The notes beneath the pieces were generated by a model. The model was not told the origin of the DNA. It worked only from the letters and a program-made list of their open reading frames with translations, and did no database searches. Positions 25,143 to 48,439 of a stretch of 64,000 nucleotides of DNA are shown here, piece after piece. Numbering within the stretch: position 1 is the stretch's first letter; every line of letters starts with the position of its first letter. Made by a program: the position numbers and the translations under genes. The DNA comes from Hymenobacter edaphi (GTDB taxonomy: Bacteria; Bacteroidota; Bacteroidia; Cytophagales; Hymenobacteraceae). The DNA is taken from the NCBI RefSeq assembly GCF_003258365.1, contig NZ_QHKM01000004.1:310001-374000 (forward strand), read 5' to 3'.

Positions 25143-25415
25143 GCCACCATCATTCCGCACGCCCCCACTACCTCGCCGATAGCTCCCACCACCCTTCCGC
25201 GCTCTTCCACCGCCTCGCCGATAGCTCCCACCATCATTCCGCACGTGCCCACCACCTCGCCGACCCTTCCCACCGCCTCGCCGCACGTCCCCACCGCCTC
25301 GCCGATAGCTCCCACCACCTCGCCGCACGTCCCCACCGCCTCACCGACAGTCCCCACCATCTCGCCGACAGTCCCTACCGCCTTACCGCACGTTCCCACC
25401 ATCTGGCACGATATT
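25143..25415. repeat. 21-bp minisatellite, 13 units
   Basis: Thirteen consecutive units of exactly 21 bp, each starting CCCACC or a close variant and ending in one of a few alternative tails (GATAGCT, GCACGTC, GACAGTC, ATTCCGCACG). Because 21 is a multiple of three, several frames stay open on both strands: on the minus strand a 92-codon frame (25124-25402) reads as VGxxGEx heptads, and on the plus strand as PTxSPxx heptads. No ribosome site or promoter favours either as a gene. Confidence 0.85.
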
Positions 25416-38798: not shown

Positions 38799-39458
38799 AT
38801 GGAAGCCGATTTTCAGACCTACCAGAAATATCCCACCCTGGCCGCCGCCGAGGAGCTGCTGGCCCTGCTGCAGCAGCACGACATATCTTACCGCCTGCAG
38901 GAAGACCGCGCCACCGTGGAGCCGGCCTTTGCCTTCAACGAGCACGACCGGAGCTTCCTGGTGAAGCTGCTGCCCGCCGACTTCGCCCGCGCCGATGCCC
39001 TGCAGGACGAAGCCAACGCCCAGCTGGTGGCCGCCACCGGCCCCGAGCATTACCTCTTCAGCTTCAGCAACGCGGAGCTGATGGACCTGCTGGTGCACCC
39101 CGACGAGTGGAGCCGCTTCGACGTGGCGCTGGCCCAGCGCCTGCTGCGCGAGCGGGGCCAGCCCGTGAGCCCCGACACCGTGCAGCTGCTGGAGCAGCGC
39201 CGCCACGTGGAGCTGAACAAGCCGCCCGAGAAGCAGCCCGCCTGGGTGTGGCTGGGCTACGTGTCGGCCCTGCTGGGCGGGCTGCTGGGGCTGGCCATCG
39301 GCTGGCACCTCTATTCGCACCAGCGCCGCCTCACCAACGGCCAGCTGGTGCCCGCTTTTTCGGCCCAGGAGCGGGTGCACGGGCTGCGCATCGTGGCGCT
39401 GGGCGTGGTCAGTTTGGTGGCGTGGGTGGCGCTGCGGCTGTACTTCGGGCGCTACTAA
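38799..39458 (+). CDS. Membrane protein with DUF2007-like N-terminal domain
   Basis: 219 residues. The first 80 (FQTYQKYPTLAAAEELLALLQQHDISYRLQ... FLVKLLPADFARADAL) resemble the small signal-transducer-like DUF2007 domain. A helical linker follows, and two membrane helices close the protein (WVWLGYVSALLGGLLGLAIGW and LRIVALGVVSLVAWVALRLYF). Its last 50 bases overlap, tail to tail, the MFS gene on the other strand. Confidence 0.75.
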   Translation: MEADFQTYQKYPTLAAAEELLALLQQHDISYRLQEDRATVEPAFAFNEHDRSFLVKLLPADFARADALQDEANAQLVAATGPEHYLFSFSNAELMDLLVHPDEWSRFDVALAQRLLRERGQPVSPDTVQLLEQRRHVELNKPPEKQPAWVWLGYVSALLGGLLGLAIGWHLYSHQRRLTNGQLVPAFSAQERVHGLRIVALGVVSLVAWVALRLYFGRY

Positions 39459-40659
39459 CGGCGCGCCACGCCACCACCGCCACGCCCGCCAGGCACAAGG
39501 CAAACCACGCCCACGGCAGCCGCAGATCCAGCACCGACAGGGCCCCGTACACCACGGTGGAGGCGATGCTGGCCACGCCCTGCACGGCCTGGTTCAGCCC
39601 GAACACCTCGCCGCGGTCCTGCTCGGAGATGTGCTGGGCGATGAGCCCGTCGAGCAGGCCGGGGATGAGCGAGAGGGTGAGGCAGTCGACGGCGACGGTG
39701 GCGAACAGGGCGGTGCGCGAGCTGCCCACCAGGCCGTAGGTCACGAGCACCGGCACGCCGCACAAGGCCAGCCAGCGGATGGCGCGGCGCTGGTCGAGGC
39801 CATCGGCCAGGAAGGTGAAGAAGCCGTAGTTGATGGCAATGCTGAGCGTGCCGAAGAAGATGAAAAACAGCGAAAGGGCGCGGGCATCCATGCGCAGCGC
39901 GCCCAGGCTGGCGTAGGGCACGAAGTAGGAGTAGTAGCCGATGCTGAGCGTAAAGAGCACCTGCGTCAGCACCAGCGGCAGCAGGCCGGGGTGTTCCCGG
40001 CCCTTGGCCTGCAGGCGCCGCCAGAGCTGGGGCACGTTCAGCGCCTCGGCCACGGTGCGGCGCAGCTCCCGGCGGCTCAGGCCGGTGCGCTGGGCGTGGG
40101 TTTCGCGCATGAGCAGGCTCAGGCCGATGTTGAGCGCGGCCAGCACCACGGCCAGCCCCACCACGGCGCGGGCCTGTTGCGGCGGGGTGAAGTCGTACAG
40201 CATCAGCAGCAGGCCGCCGGCCATGGGCCCGAGCACGAAGCCCAGCGAGATGATGGCGCCCTCGATGCCGAGGTTGCGAAACAGCCGCTCGGGCGGCGAC
40301 AAGTCGGTAATGGCCGAGCGCACGGTGGCGTACATGCCGTTGGTGAGCCCGTCGCTGAGGCGGTTGACGAAGTACAGCCCCGCCCGCACCGGCAGCAGCA
40401 GCCCATTGGCCAGCAAGGTGCCGATGGCCGACACGATGAGGATGGGCCGGCGCCCGTAGCCGTCGGAGAGCTTGCCCAGCAGCGGCGCGGCCACCAGCTG
40501 CACCCCCAGAAACAGCCCGGTGCCCAGCGCCAGCCACAGCTGCGGCCGCGGCAGCCCCCGCACAAACTCCGGCACGATGGGCCCGGTGGCCGCGCCCACT
40601 ATCACGTCGAGCAGGATGATGGCGTACAGCAGCCAGAGGCGGCGGTCGGGTGGGGGCAT
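39409..40659 (-). CDS. MFS transporter (tetracycline-resistance-like DHA1 branch)
   Basis: 416 residues, twelve helices. Motif A is visible as GKLSDGYGRRPILIVSAIGT between helices 2 and 3, and GPMAGGLLLMLYDFTPP (motif C region) in helix 5. The layout matches TetA/TCR-like exporters; the substrate is not known. A tandem array of 42-bp repeats with palindromic cores lies 52 bases upstream of its ATG and could bear on its expression. The 3' end overlaps the neighbour by 50 bases. Confidence 0.9.
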   Translation of the reverse strand: MPPPDRRLWLLYAIILLDVIVGAATGPIVPEFVRGLPRPQLWLALGTGLFLGVQLVAAPLLGKLSDGYGRRPILIVSAIGTLLANGLLLPVRAGLYFVNRLSDGLTNGMYATVRSAITDLSPPERLFRNLGIEGAIISLGFVLGPMAGGLLLMLYDFTPPQQARAVVGLAVVLAALNIGLSLLMRETHAQRTGLSRRELRRTVAEALNVPQLWRRLQAKGREHPGLLPLVLTQVLFTLSIGYYSYFVPYASLGALRMDARALSLFFIFFGTLSIAINYGFFTFLADGLDQRRAIRWLALCGVPVLVTYGLVGSSRTALFATVAVDCLTLSLIPGLLDGLIAQHISEQDRGEVFGLNQAVQGVASIASTVVYGALSVLDLRLPWAWFALCLAGVAVVAWRAVSSARSTAAAPPTPPN

Positions 40660-40710
40660 GGGGCGGCGGGTGAGGCGGTAAGTACGCAAAAGCCGGTCGG
40701 CCGGGCACCG

Positions 40711-41099
40711 CAACCGGTTGCAGTGCCTCGCCCCGGGAGCGGAAGGCGGTTACAACCGGTTGCGGTGCCCCTGCCCACGCGCGGAAGCCTGTTGCAACCG
40801 GTTGCAATGCCTTTGCCCGCGAGCGGAAGGGGATTACAACCGGTTGCAGTCCCCTTTCGCTTGCGGGGCAAGCTGCCCCAACCGGTTGCGCTCAGCCCGC
40901 GGCACCAATTGCAGCCACCGGCACAGGTGCCAGGGCCCTTCCGCGCGGGCGGCAAGCATCTGGCACAGGTGCCCAAAGGGTTCCGCCCGCGCGGAAGGAG
41001 GCCGGCACAGGGGCCCGATGGGTTCCGCCCGCGCGCAAGGGGCCCGGCACAGGTGCCAGGGCCTTGTCGCCCGCGGGGCAAACCACTGGCACCTGTGCC
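40711..41099. repeat. 42-bp phased tandem array of palindromic cores, 10 positions
   Basis: Cores begin at 40711, 40753, 40795, 40837, 40879, 40921, 40963, 41005, 41047 and 41089: spacing is exactly 42 bp every time. The first five are the identical 11-mer CAACCGGTTGC; the last five are GCACAGGTGCC or one- to two-base variants (last GCACCTGTGCC). Linkers are about 31 bp and share TTCCGCCCGCGCGGAAGG-like dyads. The array fills the space between the M61 gene end and the MFS gene start. Open frames through it on both strands reflect the multiple-of-three period. Confidence 0.92.
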
Positions 41100-41118
41100 G
41101 GAAGGCGGCGGGCGGCCC

Positions 41119-43005
41119 TTACTTCACCTGCGTGCCCAGCCAGGCCGTGCGGAAGGCCAGCTGCTCGGCCGTGGGCTGCTGCCCGGCTTTTTCCAGCGTC
41201 AGCACTTCCAGCACCGATGAGGCCGTAAGCGGCACCTGCACGGTGCGCACCTGCCCGCGCGAGCGGATTTCCAGCGCCGCCGTGTCGCCCACCTTGTGCT
41301 TTTTCAGCGCCTTGGCCAGATCGGCTTCCTTTTTCAGCTCCTTGCCGTCGAAGCGCAGAATTTCGTCGTCGCGGTCGAGGCCGGCCTGGTAGAGCGGGGT
41401 GCCCGTCTGGGTGTTGAAGGTGATGACGAAGCGGCCGTTATTGAAGCCAAGCTGCCCGGGCAGGCCGAGGCTGGCCTCCGTGGGCCGCACCGGGCGCACC
41501 AGCAGGCCGGCCGGCGCCAGCAGCTTGGCGTAGTCGTGGGGCGCGGCGGCCGAGTAAATGTGCTGGCGAAAAAACTGCCCGGCAAAGGCCGTGTCGCCGC
41601 TCACCTGGCCGAGCAGGCGCTGCAGATCGGGCACGGTGTAGGGCCGACCCGGGGCGTAGTTCTGCTGCGGCTGGCCGTGCTGCTGCCACACCAGGCGCAT
41701 GTACTGGTCGAGGGTGGTGCGGTAGCGCTGGCGCAGGGTCAGGTCCAGGGCCAGGGCGTTGGCCCCGCCCAGGGGGTAGTACGACTGGTAGGTGTTGGCC
41801 CGGTTCGAGGGGTCGATGGACTTGGCCGCGTCCACGAACGGCGCCTGCTGGCTCATGTAGATGGCCCCGTAGCGCCTGGCCCCGGGCGCCTCCATGGCGT
41901 TGACCAGGCCCGTCAGCGCCTCCTCGCAGTACTGCTGGTCGGTGGCGTAGGCGCCGGAGCGGCGCATTACCAGCTCGCCGTAGTACTGCGTGAAGCCCTC
42001 CGCAAACCAGAGCATGTCGCTCATGTTGGCCCGCTCGAAGTCGAAGGGCTCCAGGTCGCGCGGGCGCAGGCGCTCCACGTTCCAGCTGTGGAAAAACTCG
42101 TGCGACACGGTGCCCAGGTTGTCGAGGGCCGAGGGGCCGCTGATGGGGCGCGGGCTGGTGACGGAGGTGGAGTTGCGGTGCTCCATCCCGTCGCCGCTGG
42201 CCTGGGGCAGGTAGTTGGCCACGAAGGTGTAGCGGCCGAAGTCGTAGCTGGGCAGCTCGCCGAACACCGCCCGGGCCTCCGTCACCACTTTCTTGGTCAG
42301 CTCGGCGTAGCGGTCCAGGTCGGCTTCCGAGCCCCGGTGCAGCACCTGCAGCTCGATCTGCTGGCCGGCTTCCTGCCAGCTGCGCACCTGCTGGGCCCCC
42401 AGCGAGGTGGGCGAATCCATGAAATACTGCAGGTGCGGTGCCTCGTACTGGCCCGGCACCGCCGCCCCGTTGAGCTGCACCGGCAGCAGCTGGGTGGCCA
42501 CTTTCCACTCGGCCGGCAGCTGCTCAAACGTTACCCGAATGGGCCGCTGCTCCAGCCCGCGGGCGTAGGCGAAGGTGGCCGGGATGTTCAGGTGGGCGTG
42601 CTGCGCGTCGATGCCGGCGTAGGTGCCGTCGGTCCGGTCGCCGTAGAGCGTGTAGCTCAGGCGCACGGTGCCGTCGGGGCCGGGCGTCACGTCCCAGCCG
42701 TAGGGGTCGGGGTGGGTGAGGGGCAGCGGGCGGCCCTGGGCATCGGTGGCCTTCACGTCGTACACGTTCTTGGCAAATTCGTGCAGGGCGTAGCGGCCGG
42801 GCGAGGAGCGGGCCATGCGCACGTGCAGCGGCTGGCCCGCGGGCACCTGGCGGAACTCGGCCACCACCTGCGCCTCGTGGTGCACGGCGTTGGGGAACGT
42901 GATGCGGTACTGGACGGGCGCGGCAGTCTGCTGGGCCGAAACGGTCAGCGGCGCGGCCAGCAGGCCCAGGCCCAGCAGCAGCCGGGCGGCGGAAGAAGAA
43001 GGCAT
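41119..43005 (-). CDS. Exported M61 family metallopeptidase with PDZ domain
   Basis: 628 residues with a signal peptide (LLLGLGLLAAPLTVSAQ). The zinc site HEFFHSWNVERLRP near residue 302 with downstream Glu in FAEGFTQYYGELV is that of M61 glycyl aminopeptidases. PLGGANALALDLTLRQRY follows. The C-terminal 130 residues form a PDZ domain (GTPLYQAGLDRDDEILRFDGKELKKEADL). Probably periplasmic peptide degradation. ATG 43005 starts the signal peptide. Confidence 0.92.
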   Translation of the reverse strand: MPSSSAARLLLGLGLLAAPLTVSAQQTAAPVQYRITFPNAVHHEAQVVAEFRQVPAGQPLHVRMARSSPGRYALHEFAKNVYDVKATDAQGRPLPLTHPDPYGWDVTPGPDGTVRLSYTLYGDRTDGTYAGIDAQHAHLNIPATFAYARGLEQRPIRVTFEQLPAEWKVATQLLPVQLNGAAVPGQYEAPHLQYFMDSPTSLGAQQVRSWQEAGQQIELQVLHRGSEADLDRYAELTKKVVTEARAVFGELPSYDFGRYTFVANYLPQASGDGMEHRNSTSVTSPRPISGPSALDNLGTVSHEFFHSWNVERLRPRDLEPFDFERANMSDMLWFAEGFTQYYGELVMRRSGAYATDQQYCEEALTGLVNAMEAPGARRYGAIYMSQQAPFVDAAKSIDPSNRANTYQSYYPLGGANALALDLTLRQRYRTTLDQYMRLVWQQHGQPQQNYAPGRPYTVPDLQRLLGQVSGDTAFAGQFFRQHIYSAAAPHDYAKLLAPAGLLVRPVRPTEASLGLPGQLGFNNGRFVITFNTQTGTPLYQAGLDRDDEILRFDGKELKKEADLAKALKKHKVGDTAALEIRSRGQVRTVQVPLTASSVLEVLTLEKAGQQPTAEQLAFRTAWLGTQVK

Positions 43006-43345
43006 ACGGGAAAAATCAGCGGGGAAAGGGCCCGAAAGTACGCGCCCGCCAGCAGACACCGAAACCGGCCGGGTCGTTGCAGTCCGGCGTGGTCCCTACG
43101 CCGCCAAAGTCGTAGGACCACTATTGTTGCCGGGCCACGTTGCCCGGCACATCCGGCCGGGCGTTGCCTTATCGTCGAACCACGGGCCGGGAGGGCGACG
43201 TAGCCGGCCGCCGCGCTGGTGGTTCGACCACAGGCGTAGCGCCGCCGGATTGCCCGCCGCTGCCGGGTGCCCGGTGCCAAACGGGCCGTTCAACGATAGT
43301 CATGCGGGCCGTTCAACGATAGTCGTAGTACCGCTTTGAGCGGTA
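43006..43345. other. Intergenic region with repeats, no gene
   Basis: About 340 bases. Contains an inverted GTCGAACCACG/GTGGTTCGAC pair (43174-43230 region), two direct copies of GGGCCGTTCAACGATAGTC (43283-43301 and 43306-43324) and a perfect 13-bp hairpin (43322-43334 and 43340-43352) that overlaps the stop codon of the methyltransferase gene. TACTTTCG at 43032-43039 on the minus strand is a near -7 match for the M61 gene. Confidence 0.6.
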
Positions 43346-46046: not shown

Positions 46047-46102
46047 GCTCCTAGCTCCTAGCTCCTAGCTCCTAGCTCCTAGCTCCTAGCTCCTAGCTCC
46101 TA
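46047..46102. repeat. Heptamer tandem repeat (GCTCCTA)8
   Basis: Eight perfect copies of the 7-mer GCTCCTA; the last one overlaps the TAG stop codon (46100-46102) of the GAF gene on the minus strand. Degenerate inverse copies (AGAAGCTAGAAGCTGGGAGC) lie at 45974-46005, so the spacer can fold back. Confidence 0.9.
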
Positions 46103-48439
46103 GTCCAGCTTCACCTTCACCCGAATGGCCTGCAGGCCCTTCACGCCCTGCAATTCCTCCAGTTCCAGCTCTTCCTGGCCGGGTTCGAGCAGGCCACGGT
46201 CCTGCAGGTAGTCCACGTATTCGCGGTACTCGGCGGCTTCGCGGGCCTGGGCGTACACCAGTGCAATGTGGCCGGGCTGAGTGAGCCGCTCGCCGGTGCC
46301 GGCCACGGTGGCCTTGTCCACGCGCTTCTTGATGATTTCGTAGCGGATGTTGTAGGCCCCGTCCACGTCGAACTGCCGCTCGTCCATGCGGAAGCGGATG
46401 CTCAGGGCCTGCGAGTGGATAAGCACCAGCTGGGTGGTATCCAGCGGGACGGGCAGCGTGGCCTTGAGGCGGTGGGTGAGGCGGGTGATTTCGCAGCTCA
46501 CCAGCAGTTGCCACAGGCGCAGGTTCTTCAGGAAGATGAGGTCGAAGGTTTTGTCGTGCACCAGCGAGGCGCCCACGTAGATGTTGTACTCCACGCCGTC
46601 GGTTTTGAAGCGCTGGAAGTAGTGCGGAAACATCTGCTGGGCACGGCGGTCCTCTTCGTCGAGGTAGTCGCTCACCGCGTCGTTGATTTGGGTGATGCTC
46701 TGCTCAAAGGCCTTGCGGCGCTTGTACAGAATGCCCAGCTCGGGGTCGATGTTCGACCAATATTCGCTGATGACCGGCCGCAGCTCGGGCGTGTGCTGGG
46801 CCAGGTACTCAAACAGCGGCTCGACCTCGCTCTTGATGGACTCCAGAATGCTCACCTCGTCGCCCGACAAAATGCCCTGGCGCAGCCGCTTCAGGTTCTT
46901 GGTCACGTAGAATTTCAGCTCGTCCAGGATAGGCAGGGCCTGAAACTCGGTGGCTTTCTTGAGCACGCGGTTGGCCAGCGTGAGGTGCTCGATCAGGTCG
47001 CCCTGAATGGCCTCGTTGCGGGCTGTGCTGCTGCCACGCACGTCCGACGAGCCGTAGAGCGGGTACACGTCCTGGAACACGATGGGCTCCATTTCGGCGT
47101 TTTTGTTGCCGTCCTCGAGCTTTTCGAGCAGGTTCAGGGCCGCGTCGGTGAAGCGCCACTCCATGCTGGGGTGGATGGCGGTGAACTTCTCCTTGACGAT
47201 GGCCTGCACGCGGGTCTGGATTTCCTCGGCGTTGCGCTTCACCGCCACCGCGAAGAGCGGCAGAAAGGCCGTCACTTTGTCCAGCGCAAACTCGTCCAGG
47301 TCGCCGGGGTTGGGCGAACCCAGCTCCAGCAGGCCCACCGCGTCGTCGCCGTAGGGCAGCAGCGCCAGGATGGCCGAGCGGATGCCGATGCTGGTGAGCT
47401 GCTCGCGCAGATCCTCCGGAATGTCGGCCGTGGCCACGTCTTCGAGCACCAGCGGGCGGCGCTCCTGCGTCACCTGGGCGTAGATGCGCCGGAAGCCGGA
47501 GTTGGCGTCCTGGCGCTGCAGCTGCTTCATCAGGAACGAGTGGTTGATCTTGCGCCCGAAGTCCACGAAGGCCTTTTTCTTCTCGTCGTAGGCCGCAATA
47601 CCGAGCTGCAGGAAGGGCCGCCCGAAGAGCACGCGCAGCTTTTCCTGAATCTGCTCCAGTCGGTCGGAGGCCTGCAGCACGTCGCGCTCCAGCAGGTCGT
47701 ACTTCAGCTCCGAGAGAATTTCCTGATTGGTGACGTCGCTCAGGTTCAGGATGTTGAAGCCTTCGAGGGCGAAGTTTTCGGGCGGCAGCAGCTGGCGCCA
47801 CAGGGCCACGTCGTAGGGGTTGCGGCGCAGCTGCTCCAGGTCCTCGGGGCTCAGCTCGGGCTTGTCGCCCACCACTTTCACGTCCAGAAACGCGGAGTTG
47901 AAGGCCACGCTGTAGTGGCGGTAGAGGCCAATGCTGTAGTCGGGCACGGTGAAGATGATGCTGCCGTAGTGGTCGGGCAAATCCTCGCCGTAGAGCTTTT
48001 CCAGAATCTGGGCGTAGACCATGTGCACCATGTGGCGCTCCATGGTAGCCGCGTCGATGTTGAGCGGCTGCTTCACGCGCTTGTCGGGGGCCAGCAGCAC
48101 CTCCGCGAAGCGCGGCGTGTGGTAGAAGCTGAAGCGCTGAAAGGGCGGAATGGCGCCGCTGATGTCTTTGTCGAAGGAGGCGGGCGGAAACACGGCCACC
48201 ATCAGGGCCTGCACCAGGGGCTGGTGGGCGTTGAGCACGGCCGGGTCGGTGAGGGGGCCGCGCAGCTCGGGGGCCAGCTCCACCTCGCGCAGAATGCCGC
48301 GGGCCAGCAAGGACACGCCGGGGTTGGGGTCGTCGGTGCGGGCCTGCCACCACGCAATGATGGGCTCCAGGCTCAGCGTGGTCTGGAAGAAAAAGGCAGA
48401 AGCGGCGGGCGCCGGAACAACGTCGGAGGGGCGGGGCAT
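46100..48439 (-). CDS. Large GAF domain-containing protein
   Basis: 779 residues, cytoplasmic. A GAF-like domain can be placed around residues 275-415 (LQLGIAAYDEKKKAFVDFG... RRPLVLEDVATADIPEDLREQLTSIGIRSAILALLPYGDDAVGLLELGSPNPGDL). The rest is helical, including a C-terminal half of unknown fold. Similar large GAF proteins are found in the Cytophagales without an output domain. The ligand is unknown. The stop codon lies within the heptamer repeat. Confidence 0.82.
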   Translation of the reverse strand: MPRPSDVVPAPAASAFFFQTTLSLEPIIAWWQARTDDPNPGVSLLARGILREVELAPELRGPLTDPAVLNAHQPLVQALMVAVFPPASFDKDISGAIPPFQRFSFYHTPRFAEVLLAPDKRVKQPLNIDAATMERHMVHMVYAQILEKLYGEDLPDHYGSIIFTVPDYSIGLYRHYSVAFNSAFLDVKVVGDKPELSPEDLEQLRRNPYDVALWRQLLPPENFALEGFNILNLSDVTNQEILSELKYDLLERDVLQASDRLEQIQEKLRVLFGRPFLQLGIAAYDEKKKAFVDFGRKINHSFLMKQLQRQDANSGFRRIYAQVTQERRPLVLEDVATADIPEDLREQLTSIGIRSAILALLPYGDDAVGLLELGSPNPGDLDEFALDKVTAFLPLFAVAVKRNAEEIQTRVQAIVKEKFTAIHPSMEWRFTDAALNLLEKLEDGNKNAEMEPIVFQDVYPLYGSSDVRGSSTARNEAIQGDLIEHLTLANRVLKKATEFQALPILDELKFYVTKNLKRLRQGILSGDEVSILESIKSEVEPLFEYLAQHTPELRPVISEYWSNIDPELGILYKRRKAFEQSITQINDAVSDYLDEEDRRAQQMFPHYFQRFKTDGVEYNIYVGASLVHDKTFDLIFLKNLRLWQLLVSCEITRLTHRLKATLPVPLDTTQLVLIHSQALSIRFRMDERQFDVDGAYNIRYEIIKKRVDKATVAGTGERLTQPGHIALVYAQAREAAEYREYVDYLQDRGLLEPGQEELELEELQGVKGLQAIRVKVKLD

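Follow-up and report, generated by a model that had tools for sequence, protein, structure and literature searches.

The ten-unit palindromic array that fills the gap between an M61 peptidase gene and an MFS transporter gene, both on the minus strand, in the analysed window (a stretch of 64,000 nucleotides from Hymenobacter edaphi) is, in our judgement with slightly better than even probability, a solitary (trans) copy of an array family associated with a protein here termed X, and would let X dimers bind cooperatively along one side of the helix. We put the chances at about even that the family as a whole constitutes a new genetic module, restricted to Hymenobacter as far as seen, in which an X gene is followed by its own 42-bp phase-locked palindromic 3' array, the core diversifies between paralogues, and matching arrays are placed and maintained behind other genes, with a further protein, X2, having the same architecture with a 21-bp sub-period. 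The features of the locus are given in Table 1.

Table 1. Features of the M61-MFS intergenic region and its flanking genes, in window coordinates.
Feature	Position	Strand	Basis
MFS transporter gene, ATG at 40659 the most likely start	39409..40659	-	
Right arm of the intergenic terminator, GACCGGCTTTTGCGTACT, retained; the array abuts here and the left arm of relatives is gone	40681..40698	-	comparison with relatives G002 and G006
Array A: five 42-bp units, core CAACCGGTTGC at 40711/40753/40795/40837/40879	40710..40889	.	sequence; core common to the X-linked array G000:C40:161622-161841 and the array G000:C21:113035
Weaker second dyad (D2), one example, offset by 21 bp from that of the core; recurs in most linkers	40729..40745	.	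column and pairing profile, 185 units
Junction between the halves; 42-bp step kept, without the typical linker dyad	40890..40919	.	sequence
Array B: five units, core GGCACAGGTGCC at 40921/40963/41005 (one mismatch)/41047, reverse complement GGCACCTGTGCC at 41089	40920..41100	.	sequence; linkers most similar to those of array A and of the X-linked array in this genome
M61 glycyl aminopeptidase gene; stop codon 19 bp from the last core; the true start may be slightly inside the ORF	41119..43059	-	

The ten dyad-symmetric cores (window 40711-41089) are separated by steps of exactly 42 bp throughout, as described in the initial annotation of this DNA, and comprise five CAACCGGTTG dyads followed by five GCACAGGTGC-type dyads. 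Cores 1-5 are the identical 11-mer that had been reported, CAACCGGTTGC. The last five had been taken for a single second type with close variants, which is correct for four of them (three GCACAGGTGCC, and GCACAGGGGCC with one mismatch at 41005), but the fifth, GCACCTGTGCC at 41089, is the reverse complement of the second-half core and not a variant. The second dyads previously noted in the linkers were recovered as a weaker dyad mid-linker, 21 bp from the cores. Tandem Repeats Finder reported the two halves separately with a period of 42 each, and the predicted folding of the entire array is much stronger than that of shuffled sequence (z about -10 on either strand). Its proximity to the MFS gene was likewise reproduced, with 51 bases between the first core and the most likely start codon; what had been overlooked is the stop codon of the M61 gene (at 41119, minus strand), 19 bp past which the array begins.

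For other members of the family, the same genome was searched for CAACCGGTTG pairs at any period of 27-57 bp, which yielded two more arrays, both of 42 bp, and hence 3 loci with such pairs in 6 Mb. The spacing is also kept in arrays of H. siberiensis, H. gummosus, H. ruricola and Hymenobacter sp. ASUV-10, the sole exception in these four being one 41-bp step in Hymenobacter sp. ASUV-10. Among 204 genomes of the bacterial family, probed with further cores, the core varies and the period remains constant; the alternative cores, among them GGCACCGGTGCC, TGCACCGGTGCA, GCCACCGGTGGC, CGCACGCGTGCG, TTCACCGGTGAA and GGGACTTGTCCC, all fit the form NNNACNNGTNNN. In a set of 34 arrays with 185 units, chosen partly for exact 42-bp spacing but with an extension step that permitted 30-54 bp, 151 of 152 unit steps measured 42 bp and one measured 41. 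Despite this locked spacing, neighbouring linkers differ at 1532 of 3510 positions (44%). Some arrays of other genomes have a period of 43 or 41, and the number of units varies between arrays. The check proposed there, whether other Hymenobacter genomes keep the period while changing the number of units, thus had a positive outcome across species, arrays and core types, and conservation of the period over diverging linkers supports the further suggestion that the phased sites would suit a dimeric protein.

In the same set, the unit consensus YYnSMACnnGTKSnRR has its axis of symmetry at the core dyad; 99-100% of the 185 units have A at -3 and T at +2 (A/T at k=3), and the profile contains a second, weaker dyad at a distance of exactly 21 bp. 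Most units retain the purine/pyrimidine class at k=7 and 8 even without base pairing, as expected for protein-DNA readout. The change of core halfway through the window array, for which no standard explanation had been at hand, is partly accounted for, in that within-array switches recur in at least six other arrays (L226, L294, L297, L302, L303, L311) and the switching cores are members of one NNNACNNGTNNN family. With a covariance model of three units, arrays were detected in 15 of 390 sampled genomes, which belong to only two genera of the order.

Several established classes of repeat were considered for these arrays. A coding repeat (42 bp corresponding to 14 codons) was rejected: each of the six frames is interrupted by stops across the arrays, and four of these lack an open frame altogether. 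No match to the window array reached its gathering score in Rfam, the sole CRISPR-repeat match lying far below; the linkers, moreover, have a common second dyad and column profile, and no cas-type match was obtained among the flanking proteins scanned, in disagreement with a CRISPR array. Assignment as a LacI-type operator from the core alone was also rejected, since many phyla contain CAACCGGTTG pairs with other spacings (42/45 bp in Collinsella, 27 bp in Chitinophagaceae) and the core by itself is therefore of little diagnostic value. No description of the arrays or of X was found in the open-access literature, coverage of which was partial.

Gene calls in the neighbourhood of the arrays were made with a simple codon model. 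Nearly every array examined is faced by the 3' end of a neighbouring gene, commonly 10-50 bp past the stop codon, and clustering of the neighbours placed 12 arrays 10-37 bp past genes of one family of about 235 residues, X. By profile search, X was identified in 40 of 204 genomes, that is, in 19 of the 20 genomes with curated 42-bp arrays as opposed to 21 of the 184 others; G039 has an array, and no X was found there. The 3' flanks of X genes were gathered regardless of arrays and evaluated with one detector at fixed thresholds. A phased palindromic array lies directly 3' of 58 of 68 X genes, as compared with 0 of 70 for the 5' flanks and 1 of 252 for the 3' flanks of unselected genes of this genome, the single positive gene being a distant X homologue. 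With the 12 X proteins found via arrays left out, 46 of 56 X 3' flanks pass. The best period falls at 41-43 in 59 of 68 X flanks versus 22 of 252 controls (Fisher p 5e-36). X-linked arrays mostly lie 10-100 bp past the stop codon and consist of 4-8 dyad units at a spacing of 42 bp (sometimes 41 or 43), and each X subfamily has a core of its own (CCGGAGCTCCGG, GTACGCGCGTAC, GCCGCATGCGGC, TTCTTAAAAGAA, GGACGTACGTCC, GGCAGCGCTGCC and others). The most divergent X homologues of this genome, C11 and C36:31k, have no visible array. A longer distant X homologue of 348 aa with an extra C-terminal domain (L008:10912-11958, minus strand) also lacks a visible 3' array.

Arrays away from X genes were compared with the X-linked ones by core, using tables compiled by hand. 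A core is shared with an X-linked array of the same genome by 14 of 24 solitary arrays, against a permuted-genome mean of 4.1 (p 5e-5), and by 9 of 19, against 3.0 expected (p 5e-4), when close relatives are collapsed; these arrays were found mainly via AC..GT core searches, so that other core types are under-sampled. For 10 of the 24, including array B, no X with the respective core was found in the same genome. The core of array A is that of the X-linked array at G000:C40, and for array B no X-linked match was found in this genome; the core of array B had been predicted for the second X of this genome (C21:191196), but the array there has a period of 41 and the core TTCCGGATTCCGGAA. As the linkers of array B are closest to those of array A, array B would represent the backbone of array A carrying another specificity, and, from the sequence, the switch in the window appears to combine two specificities on a single backbone. 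The distance between X proteins is correlated with the distance between their cores (Mantel r 0.33, p 0.001). The partial correlation is strongest in the C-terminal tail of X, which is coded next to the array, so that it may reflect shared inheritance or recombination.

The history of the window array was assessed from G002 (M61 96% identical) and G006 (93%), the closest two relatives in which this gene pair occurs; in both, M61 and MFS have an ordinary terminator between them and no array. In the window, the right arm of this terminator is kept and the array occupies the place of the left arm. At third codon positions of M61, the window differs from G002 and G006 by 8.8% and 16.3%, respectively, and the linkers of the window array differ among themselves by 17-57%. 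As the divergence within the array exceeds that of the host lineage, the array is older than its stay at this place, and most likely arrived recently as a finished block, judging by these comparisons; that it was instead lost twice in the relatives is less likely. G006 also lacks the X-array module at the orthologous place. A comparison of linkers makes arrays A and B and the X-linked array of this genome mutual nearest neighbours (0.64-0.71 vs 0.46 between genomes), array A being closest to the X-linked array (0.71).

For X itself, Pfam, NCBIfam, PHROGs and the anti-phage set of PADLOC yielded nothing convincing and the PDB no match by sequence, and X has no recognisable DNA-binding domain; neither Y1 (PF01797) nor any other Pfam/NCBIfam family scored above cut-off in the X proteins scanned, and X was not found in the plasmid, phage and IMG/VR sets searched. 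AlphaFold models of X are predicted to be all-helical, with a mean pLDDT of 76 and 87, and Foldseek searches with them returned E above 0.7 throughout. Among solved folds the Avd and S23 four-helix proteins came nearest, with a Z of 8.2 to 2rld_C (93 residues, 2.6 Å) for one model and of 8.0 to 8ub7_C and 7.8 to 4dwl_C for the other, values that are within chance for helical bundles.

In the reading that we prefer, X would bind the dyads as dimers, and sites four helical turns apart would place neighbouring dimers on one face of the DNA and thus allow cooperative binding. At gene 3' ends, the arrays might act on transcript ends, by termination or insulation, or might mark a place for another activity of X. 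Array A (CAACCGGTTG) would be read by the X encoded at G000:C40:161857-162555. If so, the array behind each X gene would name the presumed site of that protein, readable from the genome, and dozens of X proteins with differing cores would form a natural data set for specificity change under locked spacing. A class of phased palindromic repeats otherwise easily taken for junk would also receive a concrete explanation, and the question would arise how pre-formed arrays move into gene ends.

An action at the RNA level was weighed against this, in which the arrays are transcribed at gene 3' ends and their hairpins terminate or stabilise transcripts, or bind X as repeat RNA, loosely like type III antitoxin RNAs. 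The 3' position, the folding score of the window array and the weak likeness of the X models to Avd/S23 bundles are compatible with it. Selected RNA hairpins would show more G:U than A:C mismatches on the transcribed strand; where a single neighbouring gene gives the array its orientation, the two are equally frequent (42 to 47), and the sense strand of X-linked arrays has a weak excess of G:U, 76 to 39 (24 to 12 by array, p 0.065). X-linked arrays often open with a unit that is itself an intrinsic terminator with A- and T-tracts, which agrees with a role as RNA, and a T-rich tail is present in 29% of first units versus 7-14% of units 2-6; the units behind such a terminator are, however, probably little transcribed. 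A period of 42 ±1 has no obvious reason in RNA, and the core sequence itself, not only its pairing, is kept inside an array. The mismatch counts, the first-unit terminator and the period together favour action at the DNA level, as far as sequence can indicate, and we regard the RNA reading as distinctly improbable.

Cooperative binding by X dimers also has to be set against mobility, namely that X or a partner copies or moves the arrays into gene 3' ends, as RAYT does with REP, the arrays being mainly selfish and the cores recognition sites for movement. We consider this unlikely, although several observations speak for it: the array is missing at M61-MFS in both closest relatives and has linkers far older than the split, the X-array module is missing at its orthologous place in G006, array A is closer by linker to an X-linked array of its own genome than arrays of different genomes are to each other, and gene 3' ends are harmless places. 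On the other hand, X has no Y1/HUH transposase match in Pfam and did not turn up in the searched phage, plasmid and IMG/VR sets, only 3 loci in 6 Mb have this core pair, no target duplication was seen, and several solitary arrays have stayed beside one and the same gene in 2-3 species (Lon protease, followed by an array in three genomes, and an amino-acid permease, with an array next to it in three). The means of array movement is one that we infer. The initial annotation had proposed an operator array controlling the MFS promoter, for which the phased dyads and the short distance to the MFS start speak. The relatives, however, keep the M61-MFS pair without an array, the array replaces one arm of a terminator, and the other arrays have no MFS neighbour in common and sit behind stop codons; the window array is probably not an MFS promoter element, and we hold that reading to be very improbable. 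Its alternative of a plain minisatellite, grown in place by slippage, would account for the tandem period and the variable number of units, but lost most of its appeal, given a single length change in 152 steps against 1532 linker differences, without drift of the period, the same period in arrays with unrelated cores, the presence of arrays at 58 of 68 X genes but only 1 of 252 other genes, and linkers that diverged before the array came to lie at M61-MFS. It appears scarcely credible.

Among known systems, REP/BIME/REPIN elements with their RAYT (TnpA_REP) proteins, (see PMC2817692 and PMC3116915), are similar in being extragenic palindromes, often 3' of genes, that form regular arrays of alternating orientation, have dispersed copies and are accompanied by a cognate single gene beside its own copies. 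X differs by the lack of a Y1 transposase match and by few copies per genome instead of tens to hundreds, and its arrays by phase-locking at 42 bp with 4-8 sites at 3' ends and by many cores among the paralogues of one genome. REP palindromes flank the RAYT gene; an array lies on the 3' side of 58 of 68 X genes and on the 5' side of 0 of 70. The X-linked arrays also share features with arrays of the iteron, parS and parC type. In those, the sites are spaced by whole helical turns and lie close to the gene for the protein that binds them, a role for which X would be the candidate here; the arrays associated with X are chromosomal, several per genome, palindromic, located 3' of genes and specific in core to each X paralogue, and no replication or partition genes were recognised next to the arrays examined. 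In type III toxin-antitoxin systems (ToxIN and relatives), a gene has a system-specific cognate tandem array of nearly identical repeats in front of the toxin gene. The combination of a gene with its own tandem array and the roughly similar repeat length are common to both, but the array of X follows its gene, is dyad-symmetric, has diverged linkers and occurs in solitary copies. KstR sites (TnnAACnnGTTnnA) and other TetR-type operators have the same AC-NN-GT dyad centre and are usually single promoter sites, in contrast to phased arrays at gene ends, and X has no TetR match in Pfam.

Further repeats were encountered in the course of the searches. The window contains a low-complexity array at 25144-25404 with periods of 21, 42 and 84 (CCCCACCACCTCGCCG...) and a perfect eight-fold repeat of the heptamer GCTCCTA at 46047-46103. 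At L442 (G001), a palindromic array of another type, with GACGCG-rich dyads, lies 3' of the M61 orthologue of another species, as though this gene end had been used more than once. In Collinsella (L042, L046, L049, L050, L054, L056, L085, L087, L147), three CAACCGGTTG sites at spacings of 42 and 45 bp lie in a conserved region and are probably an operator cluster unrelated to the Hymenobacter arrays. Chitinophagaceae and related genomes (L038, L041, L043, L053, L058, L075, L099, L126, L148) have CAACCGGTTG pairs 27 bp apart in AT-rich DNA, some with two pairs per contig stretch. In a Tannerellaceae genome (L134:2106-2400), CCAACCGGTTGG forms a 42-bp array of seven units that has AT-rich linkers and is possibly of independent origin, and L239 (G026) has arrays of about 45 bp period (ACCGGTTGAAGTGAGCACGATTTCAGCC...) at several places in one genome. 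X2, a protein of about 160 aa without a Pfam match (L345:1717-2202, minus strand; also L317, L318, L320, L322, L329), is a second, unrelated-looking family with the same layout as the X-array pair: its homologues in five genomes are also followed by palindromic arrays, with a sub-period of 21 bp (ACCGGT/AGTGGT).
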